Positions 13,116 through 57,410 of a DNA stretch of 64,000 nt are shown here, one piece after another. Positions within the stretch are counted from its first letter, which is position 1; every line of letters starts with the position of its first letter. This DNA comes from Isoetes taiwanensis. Taxonomy: Eukaryota > Streptophyta > Lycopodiopsida > Isoetales > Isoetaceae. Under the pieces are notes generated by a model. The model saw nothing but the letters and a program-made list of their open reading frames with translations. It was not told the origin of the DNA and searched no databases. The DNA lies in the NCBI GenBank assembly GCA_021234155.1, contig JAJEKV010000073.1, forward strand, positions 496,213-560,212, read 5' to 3'. Position numbers and translations under genes: made by a program.

Positions 13116-16011
13116 CTATGTTTCAGAATCAAGCACAAGCTCAAGCTCAAGCATAACGAAGCTCAAACTTATTAGGATCAAGCAAACCCTTGAGTCCAGA
13201 AATGATATCACCCCCTGCAATAGTCTGCCCGCCAGCTCATTTGGGCATCCTCCGACATGCAAGCGGCTGTCCAACAAAAACTCCTTCATGCCTTCGCGTT
13301 TGGGGTTTCGAAATAATAAGGCCTTAAAAAGATAAACGAAAAAAGTACTTAAAAAGTTTGTTAGGTTTAAAAATAACAAGCCCAATCTCATTCCAGGCGA
13401 ATGTACCATACCCACCAAGTAGCGACAAATGAACTTAGATATCATAATTTTACTCTGTAAATGAAAGTCAATCATACCTAGACCTCCAGCAAATTTTGGT
13501 TTGATACATGTGGACCAAGCGACCTTCACAACTACACTGTCTCGATTTTGCCCAAATGAAATTTACGGACAATTGCGACAACCTCTTGAAACTTTGTTTG
13601 TGAGGCAAGCCACGGCCAGATGCCATATATACATGAGTGTTGCCGAGAACACCTTAGCAACTACTATCCATCCGCCAGAAAGCTTAGGCAGTATTCCACC
13701 AAAAAAGATGCTTACCTTGGGCCTTCCACTATAACATCCCATGTATCTGAAGTAGAGATATGTATACCTACATGAATGCCCAAGAGTTTAGTGGCCTTCC
13801 CTTGAGGAAGCACTTTCCACGGATACTCGTAAACACAGGGAGGAACATCCACATACAAAGTCCATAAAGCAGAGCCCTTTAGCCACCCAACAAGAACCCC
13901 TGATGCCAGGGAGAAAGAGTCCAACAAAAGCTTAGCATTCTGAAGATTATCATTCTCAGCCACTAGAAAGAGAAATGTATCATCGGCAAACTGATTACAC
14001 ACTTCTTGAGAACCATCTTCCATAGTCAATCCCTGAATTACGCCATCTTGAGTAGCCGAAGAGAATAGCTGGGACAATATCTCTGCCACAATAGTGAACA
14101 ATAATGGGGCAAGGGGACATCCTTGTCGAACTCCTCTACCAACAAAAAACACAGCCGACGGTTCTCCCTGAAAAAGCACATTAGACCGAGTAGAAAGATG
14201 GAGCTTCATAACTCTCCAAATCCCAATGTCAGAAGGCATTTTTGTAGGAAATTCCAATCTATACTGTCATAGGCTTTAGCAAAATCCAATTTGAGATATA
14301 CAATGTGCTGACCCTTAAGACGCGCCCAATACATCCCCTCATAAGTTGCGGCCACATTATCAAGAATACAGTGCTTAGGTAAAAATCCTGATTGTGTGAA
14401 GGAGATAGACTCTGCCAAGATATCCCTCACTTTCTCTGCCAAGGCCTTAGCAAATATCTTGTACACCGTAGATAGCAAATTTATAGGGCGCCAATCCGAG
14501 ATAGTTTTAGGCTCTTTGCACTTAGGAATAAGGGAAATGCAACGAGTGTTGATGATCTTATCCAAGCTTCTGAACTGGCGAAACTCAGAGAAAGCATTGA
14601 AGATGTCATCACCAAGCCAATCCCAATAAGCTTGGAAAAACTCTGCAGGAAAACCATCCAAGCCTGGGCACTTATTCTTCTTTAAAGAGTCTACAGCAGA
14701 ATGCAAATCATCGACAGTAATAGTTGATTCCAACTGAACACGCTGTTGTGGGAAAATAATAGGAGGGATCTTAGATAAAACTGCCTCCTGCATGTCCTCT
14801 TGGAAGGGCAGAGACTGATCAGCAAAAAAAGCAGAAAAATGATAAAAAGAAACTGCTTCAACTGTGCAGCATCAGAAATTTCAGAGCCATCAGGTAGGAG
14901 TAGCGAAGATATGGAGCTTGACACACGTCTTCCCCTTGCCGCCCTAAAGAAGAAGTGAGAGCACCTATCTCCCAATTTAAACCAATCCAAACCGGCCTTA
15001 ACGCGAGCTTGAGTTGCCTGTATAGACTCAATGTTTCTTATTTCTGTCAATGACTCTTTCTCTCAAATACCTAATGAAGGGGGTTTGTGAACGACACATT
15101 TGAAGCTCCATATACAAATCTAGTAGCCGGCCTCTAGTTTCCTGTGCCTTCCTACGTCCCCACTGCTTAACAAAGGATTTAACTGCTGCCAAAGCGTCAA
15201 CAACCCCAGACATACCTCGAAGACAAGAAAATGTAGAGGACCAGGCATGCCTGCAGCCATCCGTAAACTCTGGGTCTGACAAATATCGAGTGTTAAGCTT
15301 GAAATAGGTTCTTGTAGCTCGTCTATGCACTGGCGTTGTAACCGAAAGCCATTGTGGATTGTGATCAGATGTGGAACTATCCAACATATTTGTCCTTTGC
15401 AAGTTACCCAGTTAGCCAGCAGCTATTACATTATAATACCCACGATCATGCCGAGCGTAAGCTCTGTCCAGCCCAGCCATTACACCATGTAAAAGACTGG
15501 TCTCCGTCAACCTCTACCATTCTGCAGTCTAGCACAAGCTGCCTCCACTACTCACGTTCAAATCCCTGAACAACCTGTGTACCCCTACCACACCTATCTG
15601 CTTCAAACTCAACCATATTAAAATCACCAACTAGTAGCCATGCTACATTATGACCGAGCCGCATAATCTTAGTCCGTAAAGTGGCCCATAGAGAACCTCG
15701 CTGACGTGGCTGATTAGGTGCATACACATTCACAATTCCCCATTCTTGCCCCTTATCCATCCATTTGACTATTATCCACCGTCCAAATCTGTCCACTTGA
15801 GTAAAAGTAACATTAAGGGAAGGTTTCCAAGCAGTGAGGACTCCAGCCTTAGCTAGCAACCAAGACATTGTAATGAGGACCCACAATTGCAGCCAGCTTC
15901 TGCACCCCATCTTTACAGCACTTGTGCTCTTTAAGACAGCAAAAATCCATCGGAAACTTAGACAGATAATTAGATAGCTACTCCCCTCACATTCCAAGAT
16001 AGTATGTTCAT
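13116..16011 (-). pseudogene. Decayed plant L1 ORF2 (endonuclease and reverse transcriptase)
   Basis: Read on the minus strand, ORF2 starts at 16011 with MNILSWNVRG, the standard L1 ORF2 start. The apurinic endonuclease domain occupies about 16011-15400 and contains the conserved GDFNM near 15610. The linker (GDRCSHFFFRAARGRR near 14960) leads into an RT domain with KLDFAKAYDSIDW near 14270 and the catalytic FADD variant of motif C near 13980. The C-terminal part (near 13500) shows the L1 motif IKPKFAGGLG. At least five frame breaks separate the ORF pieces, so the copy is dead. It ends at its 5' side only about 10 bp from a T-run and the RT element at 16.04 kb. It is probably the downstream half of the L1 whose ORF1 lies at 24.8-25.96 kb. 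Confidence 0.9.
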
Positions 16012-16035
16012 CAAGATGTATGTTTTTTTTTTTTT

Positions 16036-18300
16036 TTTTTTATTATTATTAAAGATGTTTGTTGCCTATATGGATATGCGCATTACTTGAGTAAACATTG
16101 ACATGGCTTGTCTATGGTTAGTATTGTTTAAGTTCATTATAGTATCTACTTGGAGGGTTACTATTGACCTTTAATTATATAATTGAATATTTTGTGTATT
16201 GGCAAGTTTTAGGGCTTGTGACGAACACTTAACAGGGAAATACGACACTAAGGGTTCGTGTCGAACTCACGGCCAGAGTATGGCTCTGGCCAAGTCAGGT
16301 TATGTGCATAGCTGGAAAGATACTTGGAGACAGTTTTAGACATGTTACTGGAGCAGTAGTGAGATTGGTGTTCTTAAATTTAAGAACTGTCGGTAGTACT
16401 TGAGCTTGTGCATATAAGCAGATTATAGGCCTCATGTGCGACGCTGAAATGCTGGCGACCCTATGCTTATGATATTACTCTTGTTAGTCTGCTAGAATTG
16501 AGAAATGAGGAAGAAAGGTGACCTTAATATGGCTACTAGGAAGAGGTTGGCTGAGGAGAAGAAGAATGCTAGCAGCAAGAGGAAATTGTTCGATTTCCAC
16601 AAGAAGCTTACCACTCCTGGATCTGAAAAGGCTAGTGATACAGTTGTTACTGGAAATCTTGAGAGCAGGAAAGAGGACCAGGGCGGTCCAGCAAATGCAT
16701 CTGCTGCAGTAATGATCATTGATTCTGCCACTCCAATACAAGAAATCCTTGGATCCTTCAACTCCAAGCAAACTGATGCTAACATCGGGCCTTCAACTCA
16801 GGTTTGGGCATACATCTTTTTGCATAATTCATTAGAAATATTTCCCTGCTTACATGCTCCTGTTTCATTATGAAAGTATGGATGAATCCACAAATAATGG
16901 GGTAATTAAAGTGGACTTAGATCTGGCCTTGGTAATTCTGATCTTCATGCAGGCATTATGATGTGCAGAGATGAATACGATTGATGTCTACATGTATAAA
17001 TATTGGGACAGGAATACATAAGATTTAGAGGAGATAGATACATGAAATGAATCTAATGAACACTAGGTTTATATTCTTAATCTAAGATTTGCTGGTAGAC
17101 TATAGGAAATCCTTTAATGATCTTACGATATGTACTTGTTTTACATATGTCCTAGCATGCTACATAACTGATAAATGAAATGTTCTTTATGTTTCAATGA
17201 AAATAAGGGCAAAAAAGCATGCAGATCTGCAGAATAATGACAGGATTTAGCTTCTATAGTGGTAGTGGTCCAAAAATAAAGCTAGTATTGATGAGTGTGG
17301 GCCAGTTTCTAGGTTATTGTAAGATATGTATAATTATTTCTTTATCTCTGGTTTTCTCTATGAGTATGATTCATTTTCTGATAAATAGGGAAAACTCTTT
17401 GAGACCCGATATGACTGCCAGGATTTTCAGGCACCTTTTAATGTGTAGATGTGAATTAATAATTTGTCACTTAGGGAAATTCTCTGGAGCTATTTGGTTG
17501 ACATTATTATTAGTCCTATGATAAATACTGCTTAGGCATTTGGCTAAGTCTACTCAGCTCTGTGTAATCTGCTTGTTACATGAACACTTAGCACATTTTG
17601 CTTTACTATGCTAAGATTATGTTACTGTGCTAACTGAATGATTATGAATCTGGTTTCCTCTGTACTACTATGCTGATGTGTTATCATTGTTGGTTGAAAG
17701 CTAGGGTGTGGTAACAGTCACACCTCTGACCACTCCCTGATTATAAAATGTCTTGTTATTCATGTATGACAGCAGGAGTTATGGTTTAAAGGTTTCTACT
17801 GTCGGAATGTTAATGTGACCTTACCCATATGTAATGTTTGTATTAAACAAGTAGGGTGAAGGGCCATAAACCTATAAGATCTTATGACACCTGCTACCCT
17901 AAACAGTGCAACCATGACTAATGCTTGTGTTTGTTTCTTTGGGTGCAGGTAACAGGATCTTATACTCCCTACTTTTGTTTTTTCAAAAAATTGAGGAAGT
18001 TTGTCAAAGATCTGGAATTTCTTCGAATAAGATTATGACAAGTTTTGAAGACCTTATTGTACACATAGGATTACTTAAACTTTGGTATCTGTATTTTGAT
18101 GTACTGTTGTATATCAACGTGAAGGTTTGGAAGGTTAAAGTTTCTGGTATAATATTGTATATCTTTTCTGAATTATTCTTGTAATCAGATTAAGGTCTTT
18201 TATTGAAATCACCTATTCAATGAAAGGACTGCCTATTGAATCCCTTGTTTTCTCGTAGAGATCTTAATGGATTAAAGCCTGGTTGTACAGATTTAAAGGT
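16036..18300 (+). repeat. Left direct repeat (pseudo-LTR) of the RT element
   Basis: This 2.26-kb segment is repeated at 22354-24636 with an offset of 6316 at the left rising to 6329 at the right through small indels. Most stretches are identical by eye. It holds the presumed promoter region, exon 1 of ORF1 (16505-16801) and almost all of the first intron. A second possible 3' splice site (GGGTGCAG ending at 17949) may allow an alternative exon. Confidence 0.92.
16243..16291 (+). other. Paired hairpins upstream of ORF1 in the direct repeat
   Basis: Two inverted repeats lie next to each other: CGACAC/GTGTCG (16243-16248 and 16258-16263) and a perfect 8-bp stem GGCCAGAG/CTCTGGCC (16271-16278 and 16284-16291, loop TATGG). 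Both are conserved in the right repeat (second hairpin at 22587-22607). They sit about 210 bp before the ORF1 start codon. They could be RNA structures at the 5' end of the transcript. I looked for hammerhead-ribozyme core motifs, known from Penelope-like elements, and did not find them. Confidence 0.55.
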
Positions 18301-19959
18301 TTTTTTGTTTTAACTCCAGTATATTGGTTATACCAATATCCTTAATCTTGATTACTTTTAACTATAGGTGATTTTATACATACTGAACTAACTCATTATG
18401 TTGATGTCTATTAGGAGCTTGGAAATGTAACTGAAGTGGATAAGAACAATCTTTGGATTAAGGAGTTGATAGCTCTCAACTATCATATCTGCAATATTGA
18501 CAGCCCAAACGTAGCTGTACAAACCATACTTGGTTGTATCAAAGGCAAGGAAATTCATTCTTTTATCACGTTTAAAGAATGTAACTTGTTTGATAAAAGG
18601 AAGTCCCCTGTGACTTTCTATGGTTTTAATGGGTGGTTCAAGGTGTATCAGCTCATGAAAGGAGTAAATTTTCAGTACACCAAATGCAAAGATATTGTTA
18701 TCAATGTTTATGATAACATGAATAATGTGCTGTACGAACGGACTTGTCTAGAAGATGAGCTGGCTAAAAAGTTCATGATAGGCCTGACAGCACTTGAGAA
18801 TGCCAACGACATTGTCCTTACCTTTGATGACAAGAAAGGAAATATCATTAGTGCTGATGAATCTGACATGGATAAACCTAATGGCTGCTTGTTTTCTGAT
18901 GAAGATTTGGTGGAAGATTTCACACAGAACCATGATGTGCATGACCAAGCTGATGGAATAACTAATTCTGAAATCAGCAGTGAAGAGGTACCAAATTTGA
19001 CACTTAGTAATTCTGCATGTTTTCCTATTCTTATGGAACAGTCTGTTGAAGCATACTCTGCTGTATATTCTTATGCAATCTGGGAAAGCCAGAATTTTGG
19101 TGCCATTGCTCCTTTGAGTTTGGAAACAATTATGGCACTTTTGGGTGTCAGTAAGGAAGAAATTAAAGGTGCTAAAGTTGCTGCTTCTAGGCTGGATAAG
19201 GTGTTTAATAAGTTGGATGTTGACTTACCTTTTAAGATGGATTTTTTTGGGCTTACTTGTATCAGAAATACCAACATTCAGCTTGGTCAGAAGGGCCATA
19301 TGGCCTTTCCAAACATGGATAGGGATGACTTCTACCTCAAGCGTATTTTTAGGACTCATTGTCCCTACTTCAAATGTAAATGTGACAAAAACAGGTTCCC
19401 CAAGAAAAAAGATGAATGTAGCTGTGGTATAATTTGGTTGGACCATGGCTTATGGTACCTCATCAACCATATGGAAGAGATACTGCTTGAATCTACACCG
19501 ATCATGAAAATGGTAACTCTGTCCAAATTCCTTAATCAGGAATTAAAGCCCGCTGTTATTGCATATGCAGCCTATCTGGAGGTACGAAAAATTATGATTG
19601 ACATGACCATGGCCTATGCTGAGAACCCTGAGAAGAATCTCAAGATCATGTTTGGCAATAACAAGCTTGCAGACATAGCAGAAAAACCTATAAAGCCTAT
19701 TACTTTTCTCTCTATGCAGGCTCCTAATAAAAGGGCAGGTTTTGCACAAAAGGCACTGTTTGTCAACAAAAAAGAAACCAAGATCTATAAGGTCAGTGCA
19801 AAGCTGGCACCCAGGGTGGAACATGACCCAAAAGTGATGAACAATAATATGAGGGCTGCTATCAAAGACACCACTGACAGTAATAAGGAAGCTGCAGCTC
19901 ATATTATCTCTTTGGATGACAATGAACACAATGAAGAATGTGTACCTGATACACAATAA
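16505..19959 (+). CDS. ORF1 of the RT element, unknown protein, two exons
   Basis: Exon 1 (16505-16801) encodes 99 residues with a basic start (MRKKGDLNMATRKRLAEEKK) and ends at CAG|GTTTGG. Exon 2 starts after TATTAG at 18415 and runs to the stop at 19959. Both junctions are in phase 0, joining PSTQ to ELGNVTEVDKNN and giving about 613 residues. The intron would be 1613 bp. Residues in exon 2 include a cysteine cluster, C-x3-C-x-C-x10-C-x-C (around 19360-19425, core CPYFKCKC and ECSCG), which may bind zinc. The N-terminal half has an acidic segment near 18870-18990. I recognise no family. The ORF is long and uninterrupted, so it has been under selection recently or the copy is young. Splicing is a prediction. 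A 3' splice consensus just before 20147 suggests ORF1 may also be spliced to the RT frame. Confidence 0.7.
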
Positions 19960-20146
19960 ACTGATTTGACTCTGAATTTTTGTTAACAAAGGAGCTAAAC
20001 CTAGCAAGAATCCTTTGTTTCTTTGTGGATATATATAAATATAAATCTACACTTCAATGGCCATTTGGCTTGGATTATATATAATCTAATGTCTTTATGC
20101 ATACATGCAATTATATTAAAGCCTAATACAAAGTTTTTTACTGTAG

Positions 20147-22233
20147 GTGTTAAACTACAAGAAAAGGACTATAGCCAAAGGGGCTGATAAAAAACGTCAT
20201 CTGGTAAGCCAGAACATAGAAGAAAATAAGTACATTGTACACTTTACTTTTTTCAACAAAGCATTAGAGAGGTTTAATATCAGAAGACTTTTCCATATCG
20301 GGCTGTCTGAATGCCTTCAAGAAAGAGGGATTGAACTGTTGGAAAAAACCACATTCTCGTGGAAGTACATTGATAATATCAAGGACAAAGTATATAAGCC
20401 TTACCCAATCTTTGCAGAACAGAGGAAAATAAAGTGTCCCTGCAGCAATCCAAATCTAAAAAGATTCATTGACCTTAGGATTGGACATATACGCACCATT
20501 GATCTTGATATTATTCATTGTCCAAAACTGAGAAAAGCCTTTGAAAACGGGCTGAATCACATTCCGGATCATTCATTCAATGTAAACCAATTTATGACTG
20601 AGTTTACAACTACATGTAGACAGTTCTTCAATGTGCATAAATTTGAGCTGCTGGATCTGCAGGAAGAGGATATTGCCAATACTATACAGGTACTTACACA
20701 ATATGCCCACATGGATATTGTGGAATTCATGAGCAGTATGACTGCAAAAAGATATTTATGGAATGACTTGGAAGTGATCAAAAATATCCGATGGCTAAAT
20801 GAAAACCTCTTTGTTACAGGACTTGACAAAGCTTCAAACAATGCAGCTTTCATCTGCCAGAAGCATATACATGATATGACATTGATCAGACTTCAAAGTA
20901 ATGATTTTCATAAATGCTTATAGACTGCTGATGATATCAAACTTGAATGTAAAAAAGAAATACTCAAGTTCATGAGCTCTGATAGGGGTTTAACAGAAAA
21001 TTTGCCATACCTGATGGCCTCATATAAAGCTCACAAGGGTGAGTACCGTTGGCTGACAAATGCACATGATACTATATTTTCTGACTTAGCAGCTCTCATA
21101 ACTGCTATTTTGAATAATTATATTGAAATTTGGCCAAACGTCTGCCATATTGCTACTGCCAAATACAGACTATGGTGTAATAAACCCATTAATGCCTGCT
21201 GGTTGGTTAACTCCCTTTATGACGTGATCCTAAACCTACCACAAAAGATCCATGATGTGTATGCTGCAGACATAACAAAATGTTATGAAAACATACCAAT
21301 TTATGGGCAGAATGGTATCATTGAAATCATGGACGATATCACGGATCTAGTATGGGATTATATGCGTGATGATAAACATCTCTTTGAATTGTTGTTTAAA
21401 TACAAAAAGGGGAAGTATGTGGTCAAATGGGCAAGATCCATTTGGATAAAGAAAACGTTAGCTCGGAGCCTGTTACAAGAGTACAGTTTAAGGATATGAA
21501 TAATTGGTTAGTCTCCCATTGTTATTTACTAATGGGAAAAGGTATTTGGAAGCAAGTTAAAGGTATACCAATGGGGTTTGCATGCAGCCCGGCATGGTGC
21601 AACCTATACCTTGCTTGGTATGAGTTAAGGTTTATCCTTCAGCTGGCCCATAATGGAAAAATGAAGGAAGTACAGAGATTTCAATATGCTGCTAGATATA
21701 TTGACGACTTGAACATTATAAATGGGGGCCACATACAAGAGTTCATGGAAGGACAGGCAAAAATCACAATTTACAATCTTGAACATCTTGGGATAAAAGA
21801 TGAGACAAAATATAAGGTACAGACTAGCACAGGCCTACCTATTGGATATGAATGCAATTTTTTAAATATTACCATCAAGGTTATTGATCAGGGTAGAGGA
21901 CTGTTTGAGATCAGCAGATATGACAAAAGAGCAAATTTACCATTTGAAACCTGCAAATATATAAAAGCCTCGAGTTGTAGACCATATGGTCAGGCCTCAA
22001 AGGTGATAATATCTCAAGTTCTTCCATATGTTTATGCACACTCAAATGGTGAAAATGCTGCTAGGGACATTCTGGAATTAATGATGGCATTTTGCCATAA
22101 TGGATTTGCAAAAAGAGACATCGAAAGGAATGTCTTTGGGGTGTTGAAAAATGATGACTTCCCAGGTACCCTATATAATGTCAATGACATGACAAGTATA
22201 CTTATGAAATTGTGGAAAACAGAGGCAATATAG
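20147..22233 (+). pseudogene. Reverse transcriptase ORF of the element, one stop and one frameshift
   Basis: The frame opens at 20147 directly after TACTGTAG, an ideal 3' splice site, and would encode about 695 residues. A single in-frame TAG lies at 20921-20923, and a one-base deletion near 21430 shifts the frame. RT motifs are clear: a template-grip block HKGEYRWLTNAHDTIF (near 21033), motif A DITKCYENIP (catalytic Asp at 21269), motif B GIPMGFACSPAWCNLYLAWY (from 21562), motif C RYIDD (21694-21708) and the following FLNITIK and ISRYDKRANLPFE blocks. The order resembles Penelope-like RTs and, from memory, a family of animal RT-like proteins with the signature MGTNCAPLLADLF and RYIDD. The 3' end lacks a GIY-YIG domain. 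The two lesions suggest this copy is inactive unless the stop is read through. Confidence 0.85.
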
Positions 22234-22353
22234 GTGGGTTGGGCCTGGCAACAAGGTCCAGCTCACCTTGTTGCTTCATATATGCTACAGAGCAATAATT
22301 ACCATTGGTTTTATGCTCAGATATGGCCCACCTGACCTAGGGAAGGAGGAAGG

Positions 22354-24622
22354 TTTTTTTATTATTAAAGATGTTTGTTGCCTATATGGATATGCGCATT
22401 ACTTGAGTAAACATTGACATGGCTTGTCTATGGTTAGTATTGTTTAAGTTCATTATAATATCTACTTTGTGGGTTACTATTGACCTTTAATTATATAATT
22501 GAATATTTTGTGTATTGGCAAGTTTTAGGGCTTGTGACGAACACTTAACAGGGAAATACGACACTAAGGGTTCGTGTCGAACTCACGGCCAGAGTATGGC
22601 TCTGGCCAAGTCAGGTTATGTGCATAGCTGGAAAGATACTTGGAGACGGTTTTAGACATGTTACTGGAGCAGTAGTGAGATTGGTGTTCTTAAATTTAAG
22701 AACTGTCGGTAGTACTTGAGCTTGTGCATATAAGCAGATTATAGGCCTCATGTGCGACACTGAAATGCTGGCGACCCTATGCTTATGATATTACTCTTGT
22801 TAGTCTGCTAGAATTGAGAAATGAGGAAGAAAGGTGACCTTAATATGGCCACTAGGAAGAGGTTGGCTGAGGAGAAGAAGAATGCTAGCAGCAAGAGGAA
22901 ATTGTTCGATTTCCACAAGAAGCTTACCACTCCTGGATCTGAAAAGGCTAGTGATACACGGTTATTCTTCGGAAATCTTGAGAGCGGGGAAAAGAGGACC
23001 CGAGGCGGTCCAAACAAATGCATCTGCTGCAGTAATGATCATTGATTCTGCCACTCCAATACAAGAAATCCTTGGATCCTTCAACTCCAAGCAAACTGAT
23101 GCTAACATCGGGCCTTCAACTCAGGTTTGGGCATACATCTTTTTGCATAATTCATTAGAAATATTTCCCTGCTTACATGCTCCTGTTTCATTATGAAAGT
23201 ATGGATGAATCCACAAATAATGGGGTAATTAAAGTGGACTTAGATCTGGCCTTGGTAATTCTGATCTTCATGCAGGCATTATGATGTGCAGAGATGAATA
23301 CGATTGATGTCTACATGTATAAATATTGGGACAGGAATACATAAGATTTAGAGGAGATAGATACATGAAATGAATCTAATGAACACTAGGTTTATATTCT
23401 TAATCTAAGATTTGCTGGTAGACTATAGGAAATCCTTTAATGATCTTACGATATGTACTTGTTTTACATATGTCCTAGCATGCTACATAACTGATAAATG
23501 AAATGTTCTTTATGTTTCAATGAAAATAAGGGCAAAAAAGCATGCGGATCTATGAGAATAATGATGCGATTTAGCTTCTATAGTGGTAGTGGTCCAAAAA
23601 TAAAGCTAGTATTGATGAGTGTGGGCGGTTTCTAGGTTATTGTAAGATATGTATAATTATTTCTTTATCTCTACGGTTTTTTCTCTATGAGTATGATTCA
23701 TTTTACGATAAATAGGGAAAACTCTTTGAGACCGATATGATTTGCCGGGATTTTAGGGCACCTTTTAATGTGTAGATGTGAATTAATAATTTGTCACTTA
23801 GGGAAATTCTTTGGAGCTATTTGGTTGACATTATTATTAGTCCTATGATAAATACTGCTTAGGCATTTGGCTAAGTCTACTCAGCTCTGTGTAATCTGCT
23901 TGTTACATGAACACTTAGCACATTTTGCTTTACTATGCTAAGATTATGTTACTGTGCTAACTGAATGATTATGAATCTGGTTCCCTCTGTACTACTATGC
24001 TGATGTGTTATCATTGTTGGTTGAAAGCTAGGGTGTGGTAACAGTCACACCTCTGACCACTCCCTGATTATAAAATGTCTTGTTATTCATGTATGACAGC
24101 AGGAGTTATGGTTTAAAGGTTTCTACTGTCGGAATGTTAATGTGACCTTACCCATATGTAATGTTTGTATTAAACAAGTAGGGTGAAGGGCCATAAACCT
24201 ATAAGATCTTATGACACACTGCTACCTAAACAAATTGCAACCATGACTAATGCTTGTGTTTGTTTCTTTGGGTGCAGGTAACAGGATCTTATACTCCCTA
24301 CTTTTGTTTTTTCAAAAAATTGAGGAAGTTTGTCAAAGATCTGGAATTTCTTCGAATAAGATTATGACAAGTTTTGAAGACCTTATTGTACACATAGGAT
24401 TACTTAAACTTTGGTATCTGTATTTTGATGTACTGTTGTATATCAACGTGAAGGTTTGGAAGGTTAAAGTTTCTGGTATAATATTGTATATCTTTTCTGA
24501 ATTATTCTTGTAATCAGATTAAGGTCTTTTATTGAAATCACCTATTCAATGAAAGGACTGCCTATTGAATCCCTTGTTTTCTCGTAGAGATCTTAATGGA
24601 TTAAAGTCTGGTTGTACAGATT

Positions 24623-24636
<14 letters not shown>
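22354..24636 (+). repeat. Right direct repeat (pseudo-LTR) of the RT element
   Basis: This is the second copy of the 2.27-kb repeat. The exon-1 ORF starts again at 22821, but changes in 22955-23020 shift the frame, so a transcript starting here could not make normal ORF1. Other differences cluster at 23545-23760 and at 24214-24235, while the intervals between are almost identical. The repeat ends in a run of 27 T (24629-24655), where the left copy has only seven T followed by G. Confidence 0.92.
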
Positions 24637-24655
<19 letters not shown>

Positions 24656-25959
24656 GAAGGGTGACAATCTATTATCAAGGAATATCAAGATACATACAAG
24701 GGACCTGTGACATGGGACTCAAAACCTAGAGGACGAGATGGTCCATTAAGCAAAACCACCCATACACAGTACATAATCATACTCCTTGTGCCACCTTGAG
24801 GTGTTTAATGGCCTCATCACAATCAACATGTTCTGCAACATCGAGATGATCATCAACAGATATCAAGTTATCATGCCACTGAATAGAAAGAGGCAAGATA
24901 GCCTCGTGAGATGATATAACCGACTTCTTCCTCGCTGCCTTCTTCCAATTGACCTGTTGCCATGACTCTTTAGCGCACTGAAGATTAGGACCATCAGCCA
25001 TAATAACCTCAGAAGCATGAGAAGCAGAAGCAACAACGGGAAGAGTGCTAGGAACTATAGCTGCAGCTGACAGTGCTAAGGACGACACCATTGGAACTGT
25101 GTGTAGCGCATCTTCCATAGCCGAGGAATGCAAGGCAACTGGCAAAGGTTGGTCATGGATAGATGAAGAAGATGTATGATGATGTTCTACATCCATCTCA
25201 TCAGCATCATCAAGTGGGAGATCTGCCCATTGTGTTTTGGAAATTGGTAAGGGGGAGCCTCCTCTCTGTTCCATCCTTCCATTGTGTAAGATACCTGGCG
25301 AAGGAGAGCCTCCGCTCTGCTCATTCCTCCCAAAAGAAGGAGAGCCTCCGCTCTGCTCCCTCCGTATGCTGACCCGCAGGTGGTAAGGGAGAGCCTCCGC
25401 TCCGCTCAACCCTTCCATGTGTGCCTTCAGAAGAGCGCGGTGTGACATGTGCATGCTTATTTTGTGTCGCCTTCTTTAAATTGACTCGCAGCCATCCCTC
25501 ATTCATCATTTCATGCTTTTCTTGTGTCTCTTGAATGACTTGCAATCTACGACGTACCTCGTCATCAAATGGTTGATGTTGGGCAGGAGGTGAAGGGATT
25601 GATTGAGTAGGCGTGGAGGACACAACAAGAAGACATGAAGGCACATGAGCAACAGTAGGATGTATGGTCACAGTAGAGGTGAAAGTGGCAGGTGCAGCAG
25701 TAAAAGAAAGAACAGGCTTCAAGGGAGAGGCAAGACGGTAAGCAGCAAAAGTATCAATATCAGGGAACATCTTACCTAACTCAGGACAATTGAGCAAAGA
25801 TAGATTATATCTAAAGAACAAAGGGCCACTCCTACCCATAACAGACTTTGGTAATGAAGCAGAAATAGGCAGAGATACACAAATGCGAGGACCATTGACA
25901 ATAGAGTGGGCAAGATGCAACCCCAGACTGTTGGCAATAGCCACCATGAACTGAGGAAC
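24656..25959 (-). pseudogene. 5'-truncated L1 ORF1, decayed
   Basis: Read on the minus strand from 25959, the sequence begins in mid-ORF1 (VPQFMVAIANSLGLHLAHS) and contains the plant L1 ORF1 block PRICVSLPISASLPKSV. A later part holds repeats of the motif EQSGGSP (five DNA units between about 25250 and 25420). A frameshift lies between 25320 and 25450. The frame ends with a stop just before 24777, and about 120 bp of non-coding sequence leads to a T-run on the plus strand (poly-A on the minus). The 5' side is joined directly to a U6 snRNA copy. It is either ORF1 of the same L1 as 13.1-16.0 kb, split by the RT element, or a separate short insertion with its own poly-A tail. Confidence 0.7.
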
Positions 25960-37048: not shown

Positions 37049-37298
37049 AATGCAATGGTTCTCTTCTTATATAGAAGAGAACCATCATTCTAGGGATAGG
37101 GACGCCAGTTTTGGCGCCAGCTCTGCTTTTGGATCCAAGCTTTCTTTGGCACAAGCCTGCTATAGTGCAGGCTTTCTTTGGCACAAGCCTGCTATAGCGC
37201 ATGCTTTCTTTGGCCTTTTCTCCCATAAAAGCCTTGTGTCTTCCTGCATTCCTCATCGGCGTTTCCTCTGAGCTGAATCTTGTTGTTGTATGGAGTTC
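37049..37298 (+). repeat. 250-bp direct repeat, copy 1
   Basis: This segment is identical by eye to 44550-44799. It opens with a perfect 11-bp inverted repeat, TGGTTCTCTTC/GAAGAGAACCA, around TTATATA, and holds an internal 33-bp duplication (GCACAAGCCTGCTATAG twice). It contains a TATA-like sequence, and the following 300 bp (TTTGGCTCCACAAG and CT-rich) resemble a plant 5' UTR. It lacks TG...CA ends and has no target duplication, so it is not a typical LTR. Confidence 0.85.
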
Positions 37299-44549: not shown

Positions 44550-44799
44550 AATGCAATGGTTCTCTTCTTATATAGAAGAGAACCATCATTCTAGGGATAG
44601 GGACGCCAGTTTTGGCGCCAGCTCTGCTTTTGGATCCAAGCTTTCTTTGGCACAAGCCTGCTATAGTGCAGGCTTTCTTTGGCACAAGCCTGCTATAGCG
44701 CATGCTTTCTTTGGCCTTTTCTCCCATAAAAGCCTTGTGTCTTCCTGCATTCCTCATCGGCGTTTCCTCTGAGCTGAATCTTGTTGTTGTATGGAGTTC
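44550..44799 (+). repeat. 250-bp direct repeat, copy 2
   Basis: Identical by eye to 37049-37298. The 45 bp to its left (44513-44557) are repeated at 45701-45745 with one difference, but there followed by unrelated sequence, so a rearrangement happened at or near this border. Confidence 0.88.
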
Positions 44800-54208: not shown

Positions 54209-56824
54209 AAGCAATGATCTAAGTGCTGGATGTACAGCTGGTCCAAGCCTTCCATTCTCACTTCAAACAGATCAAGGCAATCTGGATAAGCTGGAAAAAT
54301 AACCAAGGCCGCTAGGAAAAACTGCATTAACTTCATCACTCATGCGTCTCTGTGTTTCTTAACAATCTGCAAAAAAAGTTTAAACCTATCGATAGTAGAA
54401 GCAAGAGGATGGATGGCAGAGATCGAGAATAGTACCGGTAAGTAGATATCATGTGCCGCCCAGCTCCTTGTTCACAAAAAATCAGAAAGGAGCCTCCCAA
54501 TAAGATCTCTGGTTCACGGCAAAAATCAATCACAGATAAAGGAAAGAATAAAAATAATCTTGAAACTCACAAGAACAACAATCAAAGCAATCAAATGTAA
54601 ATCAGAGGAGCCGCAAAGGAGAGGAGGGCCGATGTTGGATCCGCCAAGGAGATGCTGGAGTAGAGTGCCGGAGTTGGATCCGCCAACGAGATGCTGGATC
54701 AGGAAGCCATTGGGGCGGATTTGAAGCCAGGCCGCTGGCGGCTGGAGGCGCAGTTGGAAGAGAATAGGGTTTTCGATCTGATGAATGAATGAAGAATAAA
54801 AAAATAAGGCATGCTTTTCAAATTTATCCCGCCCATTGGGTCGGAGGGCGGGATAATTTGAACTAATTGTAGGCCTATTGTTTATTATGGTTTGAAAATA
54901 GCGGAGAAAACGTGGCCTGGAATTTAAGACGACTGGAAAAAATTATTGATAGGGATTTTATAGGTGGGAAATATTTTGACTTGTCTAGAATTTCTAGAAG
55001 TGGGTAACTTTATTGGGCCAAACCCCCCATTTTAGAACCATAGCCTCAATTTCCTTCTCAAATTTCATTTTGTTATTCAAAACTTTGTCACTCGTGATAT
55101 GTATGGTTAGTGGCATTGCATAATTTTGTTAGTCAGAATTTTCAATGCACTTCAATGCTACATGCTTTGAGTTTTGGATATACTTATACCTAGACTTTAG
55201 GTGCTTAGGGTGCATCCCCATTAGGCCGTTATCCCGGCCCGACTTTGCCACATGGCAAACCCAGCCAGAAAATTAGCATTCCCATTATCTTCAATGCATC
55301 GGAGTTGTGATGTTCGGTCCAGAAAATCCAGCTCTTTCCTTATGGAGATGCACCCTTATAGTACTTGACTTATAGTACTCAAAGGAAACGAATTAGGATA
55401 CTGCCAAATCCCAAGGGCCTTTGTGGACTTTTCAAAAAAAAATCAAGGCAAATGCAACTACTATGAGAAATAGTTGTAAAACGTGACGTGTGCCAATGAG
55501 TTGCCAAATTATGGTGATGACATGGCAAAACTGGCATGATGATTCGGCAAAATATCATTTTGCAATTTCTACAAGGTACGTGGAAAAATAGAAAGTTGAC
55601 ATGAAATATGATGATGTGGCACTCCAAGTAGGTGACATGTCATGCCAACTAAGCAAGGCCAACGAAGAATGAAGTACATCCTTGGTCATTCATGGGGTGG
55701 TATGGCAATGATTGGGCGACATGGTAACATATAGATGATATGGACATGATGATTAAGCATCTTTACAAGAAATAGGACAAGTTTTAAAGCTTCATAAAGA
55801 AATTAACAAGGGAATTTAGGGGCAATAAGAAAAACTTACTTATGCCACTAAAAACAAAAGCCTTTTTCAAAAAATTGGTCAAGTCATTTTCTATCTAAAG
55901 TGCATAAAATGCTTAGTCATTATGTGACATGCCACACCATCGAAAGAAATGCCATGTCATCATGGAGAAATATGCTTTCTTTAAAAAGTTGCCAAATTAT
56001 CTATGCACATTTTCATTTTTCTACCCTTTCATATTTTGCCACCTCATCAGTCATCTTTGCCACCTCACCATACTCATGCCATGTCAATGGCATCTGTCAT
56101 AATTTTTGCATGTCAACTTGGAACATGTTCCATGTGAAAGATCACTCTTGAACAAATTGGGTTGTTAACCCCTATGTGAATGGCTTTAATGGGCCTATTA
56201 ACGCCCCGTCACATTCTACTCATCAACAACCGTATATGCTAACTTTATATCCAAGCCATCCAAAGCGTACACTTGCTTGAAACAACCTTCTTTGTTGCTA
56301 TTGTTCAGTCACCATGGTTGAATTACATTCCATTTAAATACCTAATTTTCCATGCTTAGATTCTAAGGCAAGGTCTATTTATTTCCAAAATATACCTTTG
56401 CTTCAAATCACATTCGGACTATGGTTCAATTAAGTTTATAAGTTGGATTTTGATTTATCGTCCAAAAGACAAACCAAATCAGACTATCGGCAATATACCA
56501 AGAAGACATCATTCTTCTCCTCAAGGAAAAAGTTCGTTATAATCAGAATGACCACAAAGTTCATTGAATAACCATTGAAACATTCTTTACAAAGTCAGGT
56601 CGATGTTCTAAGTTTGTTGGAAGAACCAATTCATAGTTCTGGAGTGCGAAAGTTGCATGTCCGTTGCCAGGGCCATAGGGAGAGGACATTTGAGACAAAT
56701 AGCTTCCAAAAGGTTTTAAGGGTCCATCTTCTGGCGTCAACACGATCCCTTTACAAACATGACACTCTGCAAGATCTTGGTTGAATCTGACTAGGATATG
56801 GTCTCCGAAACGTAAAGCCTGTGT
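54209..56824. other. CACTA interior without recognised gene
   Basis: The stretch around 54600-54770 is GC-rich with a repeated GTTGGATCCGCCAA. The stretch 55480-56120 is rich in TGCCA and TGGCA words (ACATGGCAAA, GCCATGTCATC). The minus ORF 56869-56561 has a coding-like section (ALRFGDHILVRFNQDLAEC) resembling the basic C-terminal region of a retroelement integrase, but I cannot assign it. Confidence 0.4.
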
Positions 56825-57410
56825 GTTGCATGTTTGAGCCATCTTGGCATGTTTGAGCCTAGGTGGCACGTTGGAGCCGAGGTGGCATTTTGAGCCACCT
56901 TGGCATGTTGGAGCCTAGGTATGTTGGAGCCCACTGGCATGTTTGAGCCACCTTGGCATGTTAGAGCCTACGTGGCATGTTTGAGCCACCTTGGCATGTT
57001 TGAGCCTAGGTGGCATGATGGAGCCTACGTGGCATGTTTGAGCCACCTTGGCATGTTTGAGCCTAGGTGGCATGTTAGAGCCTGCGTGGCATGTTTGAGC
57101 CACCTTGGCATGTTGGAGCCTAAGTGGCATGCTTGAGCCATTGTGGCAAGTTGGAGCCCAGGTGGCATGTTTGAGCCACCTTGGCATGATGGAGCCTAGG
57201 TGGCATGTTGGAGTCCACATGGCATGGTTGAGCCGCCTTGGCATGTTGGAGCCTAGGCGGCATGTTGGAGCCGAGGTGGCATGTTCCGGAGCCTTCGTGG
57301 CATGTTCGAGCTACCTTGGCATGTTTGAGCCACCTTGGCACGTTGGAGGCAAGGTGGCATCTTGGAATGCGCGTGGCATGTTTGAGCCACCTTGGCATGT
57401 TGACTTTGGC
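56825..57410 (+). repeat. 19-bp minisatellite, about 31 copies
   Basis: The unit is TGGCATGTTNGAGCCNNNN. The last four bases alternate mainly between ACCT and TAGG or TACG, giving a 38-bp higher-order dimer. Because 19 is not a multiple of three and stops are rare in the unit, ORFs appear on both strands and in several frames; these are not genes. Confidence 0.93.

Follow-up and report, generated by a model that had tools for sequence, protein, structure and literature searches.

Isoetes taiwanensis harbors a retroelement family with long direct repeats, a probably Penelope-related reverse transcriptase and putative priming from poly(A) tails

Penelope-like elements (PLEs) can carry direct repeats and introns and occur in tandem arrangement, according to the parts of PMC3846280 and PMC11167929 drawn on here, and section 6 of the former gives repeats of about 0.2 kb. 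PLEs deficient in endonuclease, EN(-) PLEs, are recorded for plants in the excerpts used of PMC9033089 and PMC12477314. Insertion into homopolymers is described for Zorro3 (Candida, L1 clade), which, in the portion of PMC1965478 considered, has an endonuclease, inserts at poly-A tracts, starts and ends in homopolymer with its A-run on the sense strand, and is proposed to anneal to the target on both strands.

The window analyzed here is a stretch of 64,000 nucleotides from Isoetes taiwanensis (GCA_021234155.1, contig JAJEKV010000073.1, positions 496,213 to 560,212, forward strand), and all positions below refer to it. In the reading that we favor (probability about 0.55), the copy in this window is a decayed member of a retroelement that is autonomous, comprises several families and has real long direct repeats, a divergent and probably Penelope-related reverse transcriptase (RT) and a tail-primed cycle, with no endonuclease of its own found.

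Layout, repeats and family size

The retroelement spans 16035-24635 and comprises 2.27-kb direct repeats, ORF1 and an RT frame. Its order (LTR, leader exon 1, ORF1, RT, G-rich tract, LTR) recurs in diverged copies. The features of the element are:

16035..18306, + strand: left long direct repeat (LTR5), T7-ATTATTATTAAAG ... TTTAAAGG-T7, ends compared with other copies
16505..16801, + strand: exon 1, 99 codons, MRKKGDLNMATRKR..., basic, donor CAG/GTTTGG at 16801/16802
16802..18414, + strand: putative intron 1, from exon 1 to ORF1, acceptor CTATTAG/GAG (TAG/G acceptor in 6 of 7 copies shown)
17946..17953, + strand: conserved CAG/GTAAC site of the LTR, where an acceptor directly abuts a donor (TGCAGGTAACAGG kept in the LTRs of the window, L051 and L052)
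18321..18339, + strand: palindrome ATATTGGT-TAT-ACCAATAT just inside LTR5 (three families; covarying pair in L052)
18415..19959, + strand: ORF1 exon, 514 codons, no known family, opens directly after TAG
20147..22233, + strand: RT exon, opens at TGTAG/GT; motif A AADITKCYENIP, B GIPMGFACSP, C RYIDD
22340..22353, + strand: G-rich tract GGGAAGGAGGAAGG, polypurine-tract-like, directly 5' of LTR3
22354..24635, + strand: right long direct repeat (LTR3), in which exon 1 is out of frame

The near-identical direct repeats of the preliminary description hold up: 16037-18311 aligns with 22354-24640 at 97.8% identity, and LTR5 differs from LTR3 by 57 mismatches in 2273 aligned columns, mostly in a few clusters. 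Read from the sequence, T7 lies at both ends of LTR5 (16035-16041 and 18300-18306) and of LTR3 (22354-22360 and from 24629). Repeat length is 2.1-2.4 kb among copies, inner LTR ends read T6-8, and the element's 3' end is AAAGG-T7 in the copies read, in place of a telomeric repeat.

The host genome contains at least 140 RT and at least 85 ORF1 matches that were scored (first-look candidates: 3135 RT and 3746 ORF1), and 54 LTR matches including the window's own two. A same-strand RT match among the 140 lies 2.1-3.8 kb downstream in 49 of the 85 ORF1 rows, two of which are parts of a single frame at C974. Many copies share the boundaries, a point that the preliminary description had asked to be checked, and they include two further families of the same layout (ORF1 identity 64% and 51%); most copies are distant from contig ends. 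The clustered LTR differences would suit a duplication, be it of a host gene or in the assembly, but the many dispersed copies have different flanks and the same boundaries, and we give this explanation next to no chance; assembly duplication is excluded by the 54 LTR matches together with the two diverged families sharing the layout. New relative to the preliminary description are the RT acceptor, how large the family is, the target in T-runs or poly(A) tails, and the motifs flanking the inner ends of the LTRs.

These inner motifs bear on an LTR-type cycle, in which RNA from LTR5 to LTR3 would undergo two strand transfers that restore both LTRs, with the minus strand beginning just inside LTR5 and the plus strand at the G-rich tract before LTR3, and host microhomology repair would join the linear T7-ended DNA to A/T runs. 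The fixed inner LTR ends, the conserved palindrome inside LTR5 and the G-rich tract abutting LTR3 fit such a cycle. Of 27 orientable loci, 24 have the tract before LTR3 (25 if either pattern counts), and it reads exactly GG-NN-GG-N-GG-NN-GG followed by T6-9 in 21 of 30 loci. Also in keeping with an LTR-type cycle are the near-identical LTR pair of L052 (5 mismatches in 2121 columns, with 7 gap columns) and two LTRs that lack an adjoining internal region and have both ends in T-runs. However, the tract contains pyrimidines in several families, the LTR ends are direct T-runs instead of inverted TG..CA, RNase H and integrase were not found, and RVT_2 had no match to the window frames scanned. We consider an LTR-type cycle unlikely, though a serious contender.

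Leader exon, ORF1 and reverse transcriptase

Exon 1 had been described as spliced in phase 0 at consensus sites. The phase stands, as exon 1 joins 18415 in phase 0, and the donor CAG/GT is joint best among GT sites within 16450-18450 (rough matrix); the acceptor at 18415 is of moderate score (top 6.5% of AG sites in the same interval, outside the ten best), so its support is conservation across copies. A coding exon and putative intron within the repeat, also claimed before, are supported. Each of the 15 sources scanned has the leader exon inside its LTR, and the frame of this exon is open through to the donor in 17 of 24 LTR copies. All 13 RT ORFs of at least 600 aa begin at TGTAG/, with the first Met at residue 149 (nine ORFs), 146 (one), 64 (two) or 7 (one). 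Because both internal ORFs begin at an acceptor without a start codon, we infer that one leader would be spliced to either ORF1 or RT. The CAG/GTAAC site, kept in LTRs of L051, L052 and the window that are otherwise alignable in short pieces only, may be a recursive site in LTR5 or the acceptor of a 3' exon in LTR3 (24277/24278). ORF1-RT fusion through the phase-0 donor at 19791, which ranks in the top 1.3% of GT sites, was discarded as the principal route because conservation of ORF1 extends past this donor to the C-terminus and a valine (GT) codon is lacking there in L052.

ORF1, called novel in the preliminary description, matched no known family over its 514 codons; its invariant residues are H-C-x4-C-x-C ... 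C-x-C, and IISLDD is found at the C-terminus. The RT frame, likewise recognized earlier, matches RVT_1 at 22.3 bits (under the Pfam cut-off of 29.6), while NCBIfam gave a weak group II RT match alone (19 bits). In the window copy it is interrupted by an in-frame TAG (20921-20923) and, within 21400-21499, by a shift of frame. As stated before, no protease, RNase H, integrase or endonuclease (GIY-YIG or AP) was matched in the five frames scanned. PDB profile searches with RT and with ORF1 returned 0 hits, searches of viral_contigs found no relatives, and single-sequence AlphaFold models had mean pLDDT of 31 and 44.

ORF1 and RT are under purifying selection, with dN/dS of about 0.1 where measurable: 0.091-0.097 for ORF1 (three pairs) and 0.105 for RT (one pair), with 0.34 for RT in the near-identical pair L027-L026. 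For exon 1, dN/dS is 0.25-0.51 in 8 of 10 pairs and 1.1 against the closest copy, C622 (few changes). The estimates cover 3 of 5 ORF1, 9 of 10 exon 1 and 2 of 12 RT pairs, the others being not computable due to saturated synonymous sites.

We compared the RT profile by hhalign with unverified reference sequences (the canonical PLE and animal-group references) and with natural ones. The invertebrate RT reference matched strongly at 96.6 (E 2e-13; best shuffle 21.3), and the natural fragments L063 and L064 matched moderately at 38.0 (best of 40 shuffles 23.9) and 36.5 (21.7), E for two natural relatives of that reference being 1.6e-4 and 1.3e-4. These fragments, which come from symbiont assemblies and are read as mussel DNA, cover the last part of the shared RT stretch only. 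The canonical PLE reference scored weakly (28.6; best of 30 shuffles 25.6), and the L1 RT of the window scored 13.3, under its best shuffle (21.3). On profile similarity, the RT lies close to the animal RT group, has a weak likeness to canonical Penelope and is not close to L1. The Penelope-like or sister lineage proposed in the preliminary description is a candidate placement.

Insertion sites and possible priming

Each of the 24 outer ends that were measured falls within a T-run of 10-45, the shortest at left ends being T10 and T11 (two ends). At the window locus the target can be traced:

16013..16022, no strand: left TSD of the SINE-like repeat, 10 bp, AAGATGTATG
16023..16041, + strand: 5' junction T-run of 19 (target plus element T7)
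24629..24655, + strand: 3' junction T-run of 27 (element T7 plus target)
24656..25168, - strand: target, a SINE-like repeat (about 510 bp); the T-run is its poly(A) tail
25169..25178, no strand: right TSD of the SINE-like repeat, 10 bp, AAGATGTATG

The SINE-like repeat's own 10-bp TSD brackets the insertion and T-run, and a T-run (7-25) occupies the same boundary in 8 of 8 further SINE copies. The right flank of C107 is a second high-copy repeat, of which two fetched copies show T24-25 at that point with different outer flanks, and next to L052 a neighboring tandem unit provides an in-locus empty site, unfilled, with T19. Judged from these repeats, the T-run in each of the two traced copies is another retroelement's poly(A) tail; RT slippage could account for T-runs in part. 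No TSD of the retroelement was seen outside the T-run.

None of the 140 scored RT matches is within 10 kb of the 121 GIY-YIG matches listed (150 of 263 candidates scored), and one is within 30 kb. Since EN(-) PLEs exist, this lack excludes membership in canonical PLEs alone. A GIY-YIG ORF beside an LTR at C1047 and C1029 was rejected as part of the element because these loci share 98% identity and their LTR starts in a T-run adjoining that ORF.

We infer that A-tails prime synthesis on the U-run at the end of the element without any endonuclease. In the tail-primed cycle, the LTR promoter would yield a single pre-mRNA, in which exon 1 would contribute the start codon together with a basic segment, possibly for nuclear import; spliced in phase 0 to ORF1 or to RT it would encode the two proteins, while unspliced RNA would serve as genome. 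ORF1, with its zinc-type cluster, would bind element RNA. Where a target A-tract is broken or nicked, the A-strand 3'-OH would pair with the terminal U-run (AAAGG-U7) and prime first-strand cDNA; the second strand would then be made after A7 at the cDNA 3' end has paired with the T strand of the target. An endonuclease would be unnecessary, and any duplication would be hidden within the homopolymer.

Target-primed reverse transcription alone leaves unexplained how an RNA would come to start exactly at the LTR 5' end and why motifs lie at the inner LTR ends. A variant that we rate as quite doubtful has the poly(A) tail of another retroelement prime at a U7 'primer-binding site' on the border of LTR5 and internal region, whereupon LTR-style strand transfers and G-tract priming would build both LTRs on the chromosome. 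If true, it would be target-primed LTR retrotransposition by a PLE-related RT without tRNA, endonuclease, RNase H or integrase, a cycle matching no retroelement class known to us.

L1-type nicking at TTTT/AA frees the T strand. A LINE endonuclease opening A-tails in trans is suggested by LINE machinery operating at tails and by an L1-type RT plus sub-threshold endonuclease match in the same window; the junction geometry, however, requires an A-strand primer for the first strand, so a LINE could serve second-strand priming only, and we see a slim chance for this route.

The element could also be an ordinary endonuclease-free PLE, with pseudo-LTRs arising from head-to-tail template jumping and T-runs as mere AT-rich landing sites. 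Direct repeats, introns and tandem arrangement are PLE traits in the cited parts of PMC3846280 and PMC11167929, and PMC9033089, in the portion used, lists EN(-) PLEs for plants. The element has direct repeats of the pseudo-LTR type, conserved donor and acceptors of putative spliceosomal introns, one tandem locus (C622, LTR-int-LTR-int, the sole case seen), and a solo LTR, C1056, that follows head-to-tail on the 3' end of an LTR from a different family, the T-run there belonging to that other element. (C941 was dismissed as a tandem array; its coordinates fit one full element and a separate LTR piece.) Against this reading, the 24 ends are fixed and in T-runs, the 3' end bears no telomeric repeat, the RT is weakly like the canonical PLE reference, and the repeats far exceed the length given in section 6 of PMC3846280. 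Nor was there a hammerhead match in Rfam up to E 5 in 15900-24900; a motif scan was at chance level (21 found, 21.4 expected), where minimal variants could escape. We doubt this account while giving it real weight.

Should the tail-primed reading be true, an endonuclease-free retroelement thrives inside chromosomes, not just at telomeres, by parasitizing the poly(A) tails of other retroelements, and a PLE-like RT is united with LTR architecture and an LTR leader exon common to two proteins. How endonuclease-free PLE-like elements find 3' ends could then be tested in this family, which has many open frames and one or more LTR pairs that have hardly aged.

Comparison with known retroelements

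With Ty3/Ty1 LTR retrotransposons the element shares LTRs, a putative purine-rich tract before LTR3 and LTRs without internal region; unlike them, it has direct T7 ends and no TSD seen beyond the T-run, and protease, RNase H and integrase were not found. The animal 'RT domain' group, with the motifs GIPMGTNCAP / RYIDD / YDKRDDF, shares motifs B, C and E and a YDKR-F-SS-P-ISQ stretch with the window RT; it is known here from fragments alone, with no LTR or ORF1 in them. Zorro3 is not known to have LTRs and has, in the excerpt describing it, an A-run on the sense strand, whereas the window element has a T-run there. EN(-) PLEs (Athena and Coprina; those of Selaginella and conifers) resemble the element in an RT without GIY-YIG, direct repeats and plant occurrence. 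As portrayed in the source passages they are tied to telomeres, whereas the window element ends in T7 and has copies inside contigs in T-runs, and it differs from them in its 2.1-2.4 kb repeats, a coding leader exon and an ORF1 that matches no family.

Structure and copies of the element

When the window is compared with itself, 16037-18311 and 22354-24640 align as direct repeats of 2.27 kb with 97.8% identity, which enclose a 514-codon ORF (ORF1) and an RT frame, as the preliminary description had stated. Mismatches between the left and right repeats (LTR5 and LTR3) lie largely in a few short patches, and may reflect sequencing error or local change such as patchy conversion. This copy is broken (its RT frame contains a single in-frame stop and a single frame change), exon 1 in its right LTR is out of frame, and Pfam RVT_1 matches its RT motifs weakly (22.3 bits; cut-off 29.6). 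Elsewhere the window contains a satellite-like array with many self-matches (56813-57403), and two exactly identical 250-base direct repeats 7.5 kb apart (37049-37298 and 44550-44799).

The same-genome search for further copies that had been suggested was run on the window's own assembly (1.66 Gb), and gave 54 LTR matches including the window's two (best 40 of 641 candidates scored), 140 RT matches (best 140 of 3135 scored) and 85 ORF1 match rows (best 84 of 3746 scored), two of which are pieces of one frame at C974; unscored candidates are not proved family members. In many of the RT matches scored, the frame stays open for ~690-700 aa. A same-strand RT hit, among the 140, is found 2.1-3.8 kb downstream for 49 of the 85 ORF1 rows; because both lists contain best-scored hits only, a row without a paired RT hit does not mean absence. 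Two diverged, distant families, L051 (ORF1 identity 64%, LTRs 2.4 kb) and L052 (51%, 2.1 kb), share the LTR-ORF1-RT-LTR order with the window. The L052 LTRs show 5 differences in 2121 columns plus 7 gap columns, so this copy is young; the remaining five LTR pairs have 46 to 116 differing columns each. Locus C622 contains a tandem LTR-internal-LTR-internal arrangement (L009), and its second ORF1 copy shares 84% identity with the window ORF1 and has 4 stops.

Leader exon and encoded proteins

Exon 1 (start M-x-RKKGDLN-x-ATRKR) lies inside the LTR in all 15 sources scanned, which bears out the earlier report of a coding exon within the repeat; its frame is open to a (C or A)AG/GT donor (slash, splice boundary) in 17 of 24 listed LTR copies, and broken before or at the donor in 7. 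A rough splice matrix ranks the donor within the best 1.6% of GT sites, and the acceptor before the RT within the best 4.1% of AG sites. The putative join of exon 1 to ORF1 at consensus sites, as described earlier, stands in its phase (0) and its conserved acceptor, less so in the score of that acceptor (only top 6.5%), so conservation rather than score carries the splicing argument. TAG/G opens ORF1 in six of the seven copies shown (a stop cuts the remaining one), and TGTAG/ is the opening of 13 of 13 RT ORFs of at least 600 aa, in which the first Met is residue 149 (nine ORFs), 146 (one), 64 (two) or 7 (one). Any stop-to-stop frame starts behind a stop by definition; that this stop is the TAG of the TGTAG acceptor in every RT ORF is not expected by chance. 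Since the RT acceptor is likewise in phase 0 relative to exon 1, the simplest reading would be one leader exon alternatively spliced to ORF1 or RT. A CAG/GTAACAGG site is kept in the LTRs of three families, which otherwise align only in short pieces, and is a candidate recursive site in LTR5, 3'-exon acceptor in LTR3, or both.

Nei-Gojobori dN/dS for ORF1 is 0.091 (C622), 0.095 (C107) and 0.097 (C941), and saturated against L051 and L052. For RT it is 0.105 (L027-L028) and 0.34 (L027-L026, near-identical), with the other 10 pairs saturated. Of ten exon 1 pairs, eight give 0.25-0.51; the comparison with C622, the nearest copy, gives 1.1 from few changes, and that with L052 is saturated.

Searches of Pfam, NCBIfam, PDB sequences and viral contigs gave no accepted relative of ORF1, consistent with its description as novel; an SP2_C match of one member other than the window's (E 0.004) was dismissed as stray. 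H-C-x4-C-x-C and C-x-C residues are invariant across six ORF1 copies and suggest a zinc site. The C-terminus reads (I/V)ISL(D/E)D in 5 of 7 aligned copies, with IISLDE (C107) and IIALDD (C941) at the same place.

All nine aligned RT proteins keep the motif A and motif C aspartates (D375, D520, D521). With hhalign, the profile of these nine matches a provisional invertebrate RT sequence at 96.6 (E 2e-13; best of 30 shuffled sequences 21.3) and a provisional canonical Penelope RT at 28.6 (best of 30 shuffles 25.6), whereas the L1 RT of the window reaches 13.3, under its best shuffle (21.3). Two natural relatives of the invertebrate RT, both extending only over the part after motif C, score 38.0 (best of 40 shuffles 23.9) and 36.5 (21.7); although the assemblies that contain them bear the titles of bacterial symbionts, in one case of Bathymodiolus, they are read as mussel DNA. 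By these scores the RT appears to belong with the group resembling Penelope-like elements (PLEs), not with L1, which leaves the proposed Penelope-like or sister lineage a candidate; PLE membership itself is not proved.

The genome has at least 121 GIY-YIG matches (best 150 of 263 candidates scored), many of them dispersed, small open frames (~115-155 aa), which looks like a multi-copy family of small GIY-YIG genes. Among the best-scored matches, not one comes closer than 10 kb to any of the 140 RT hits, in agreement with the earlier observation of no GIY-YIG, and a single match comes within 30 kb. Two hits beside LTR copies were rejected as part of the element, since they represent a single locus that has been duplicated and in which the gene belongs to the flank. 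The two sequences, L061 (C1047) and L062 (C1029), share ~0.9 kb at 98% identity, with the GIY-YIG ORF and the start of the LTR copy, and are a segmental duplication, in the assembly or in the genome. A family search of the frames, the one search made for other nucleases, found none.

Insertion into T-runs and poly(A) tails

All 24 readable outer ends (12 left and 12 right, from 16 sources) lie within T-runs of 10-45 on the element's plus strand; ends beyond the fetched stretches, and the right end at C622, which continues into another internal region, are left out of this count. Inner LTR ends have T6-8 (twelve ends of six copies by reading; further loci by a pattern demanding 6-9), so either the target or slippage accounts for the excess in the outer runs. 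Outside the element, homopolymers of at least 10 T or A occupy 81 of 55,300 window bases.

The right flank of the window copy (24656-25168) is a SINE-like repeat, ~510 bp long, with a poly(A) tail and a high copy number, for which 37 of 40 scored matches (best 40 of 1378 candidates) end at window 25170. A T-run (T7 to T25, some interrupted) is found at the same boundary in 8 of 8 other fetched copies with differing outer flanks, and is therefore the repeat's poly(A) tail. The target-site duplication (TSD) of this repeat brackets both insertions, so the T-run is older than the element insertion:

16013-16022 and 25169-25178: 10-bp TSD of the SINE-like repeat, AAGATGTATG

The order of insertion, judged from this nesting, is a minus-strand L1, then the SINE-like repeat, then the element inside its tail. 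The broken L1-type element (13715-16039, minus strand) has RVT_1 and a sub-threshold endonuclease match, and the nested insertions sit in the region before its ORF2.

The right flank at C107 is a different high-copy repeat (42 matches, 341 candidates), with T24-25 at the boundary and other outer flanks in two of two fetched copies. An empty site with T19 is kept in a tandem unit neighbouring L052. C1056 (L020) is a differing case, in which a solo LTR sits head-to-tail directly after an L052-type LTR, whose 3' end forms the solo LTR's 5' flank (119 columns, 71%, E 2.7e-10); the two LTRs belong to different families of the same superfamily. Either the T-run here is what an older element ended in, or template jumping produced the pair. 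The C1037 left flank looks like that of C1056 by eye, and the same test was not significant. Inspection by eye of the ends compared showed no duplication beyond the T-run.

Proposed priming and comparison with known elements

The geometry is fixed by the junctions: at the element's 3' end the A strand runs on into first-strand cDNA, which would make a 3'-OH of the tail the natural primer. This 3'-OH would pair with the RNA's terminal U7 and prime the first strand, and the cDNA A7 would pair with the target T strand.

Right before LTR3, purines adjoin T6-9 and A in 24 (one pattern) or 25 (either pattern) of 27 orientable loci, three of 30 being impossible to orient, and an exact GG-NN-GG-N-GG-NN-GG precedes T6-9 in 21 of 30. 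Right inside LTR5, the sequence around TTGGT-NNN-ACCAA is palindromic and includes a covarying pair (three families only). The polypurine tract (PPT) and primer-binding site of LTR elements occupy these same two positions. The motifs therefore keep alive an LTR-type cycle, in which RNA from LTR5 to LTR3 undergoes two strand transfers and linear DNA with T7 ends is joined to A/T runs, the minus strand starting just inside LTR5 and the plus strand at the G-rich tract. They also keep alive a hybrid, in which the poly(A) tail would prime at U7 by the LTR5/internal border and LTR-style transfers would then build both LTRs on the chromosome.

No such element was found described in titles or abstract openings, which does not prove its absence in print. 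PLE structure was checked against PMC3846280, PMC11167929, PMC12477314, PMC9033089 and PMC7761336. For priming by the tail's 3'-OH, PMC1965478 offers Zorro3 as a precedent of annealing at both ends, although Zorro3 has an endonuclease and is opposite in strand sense.
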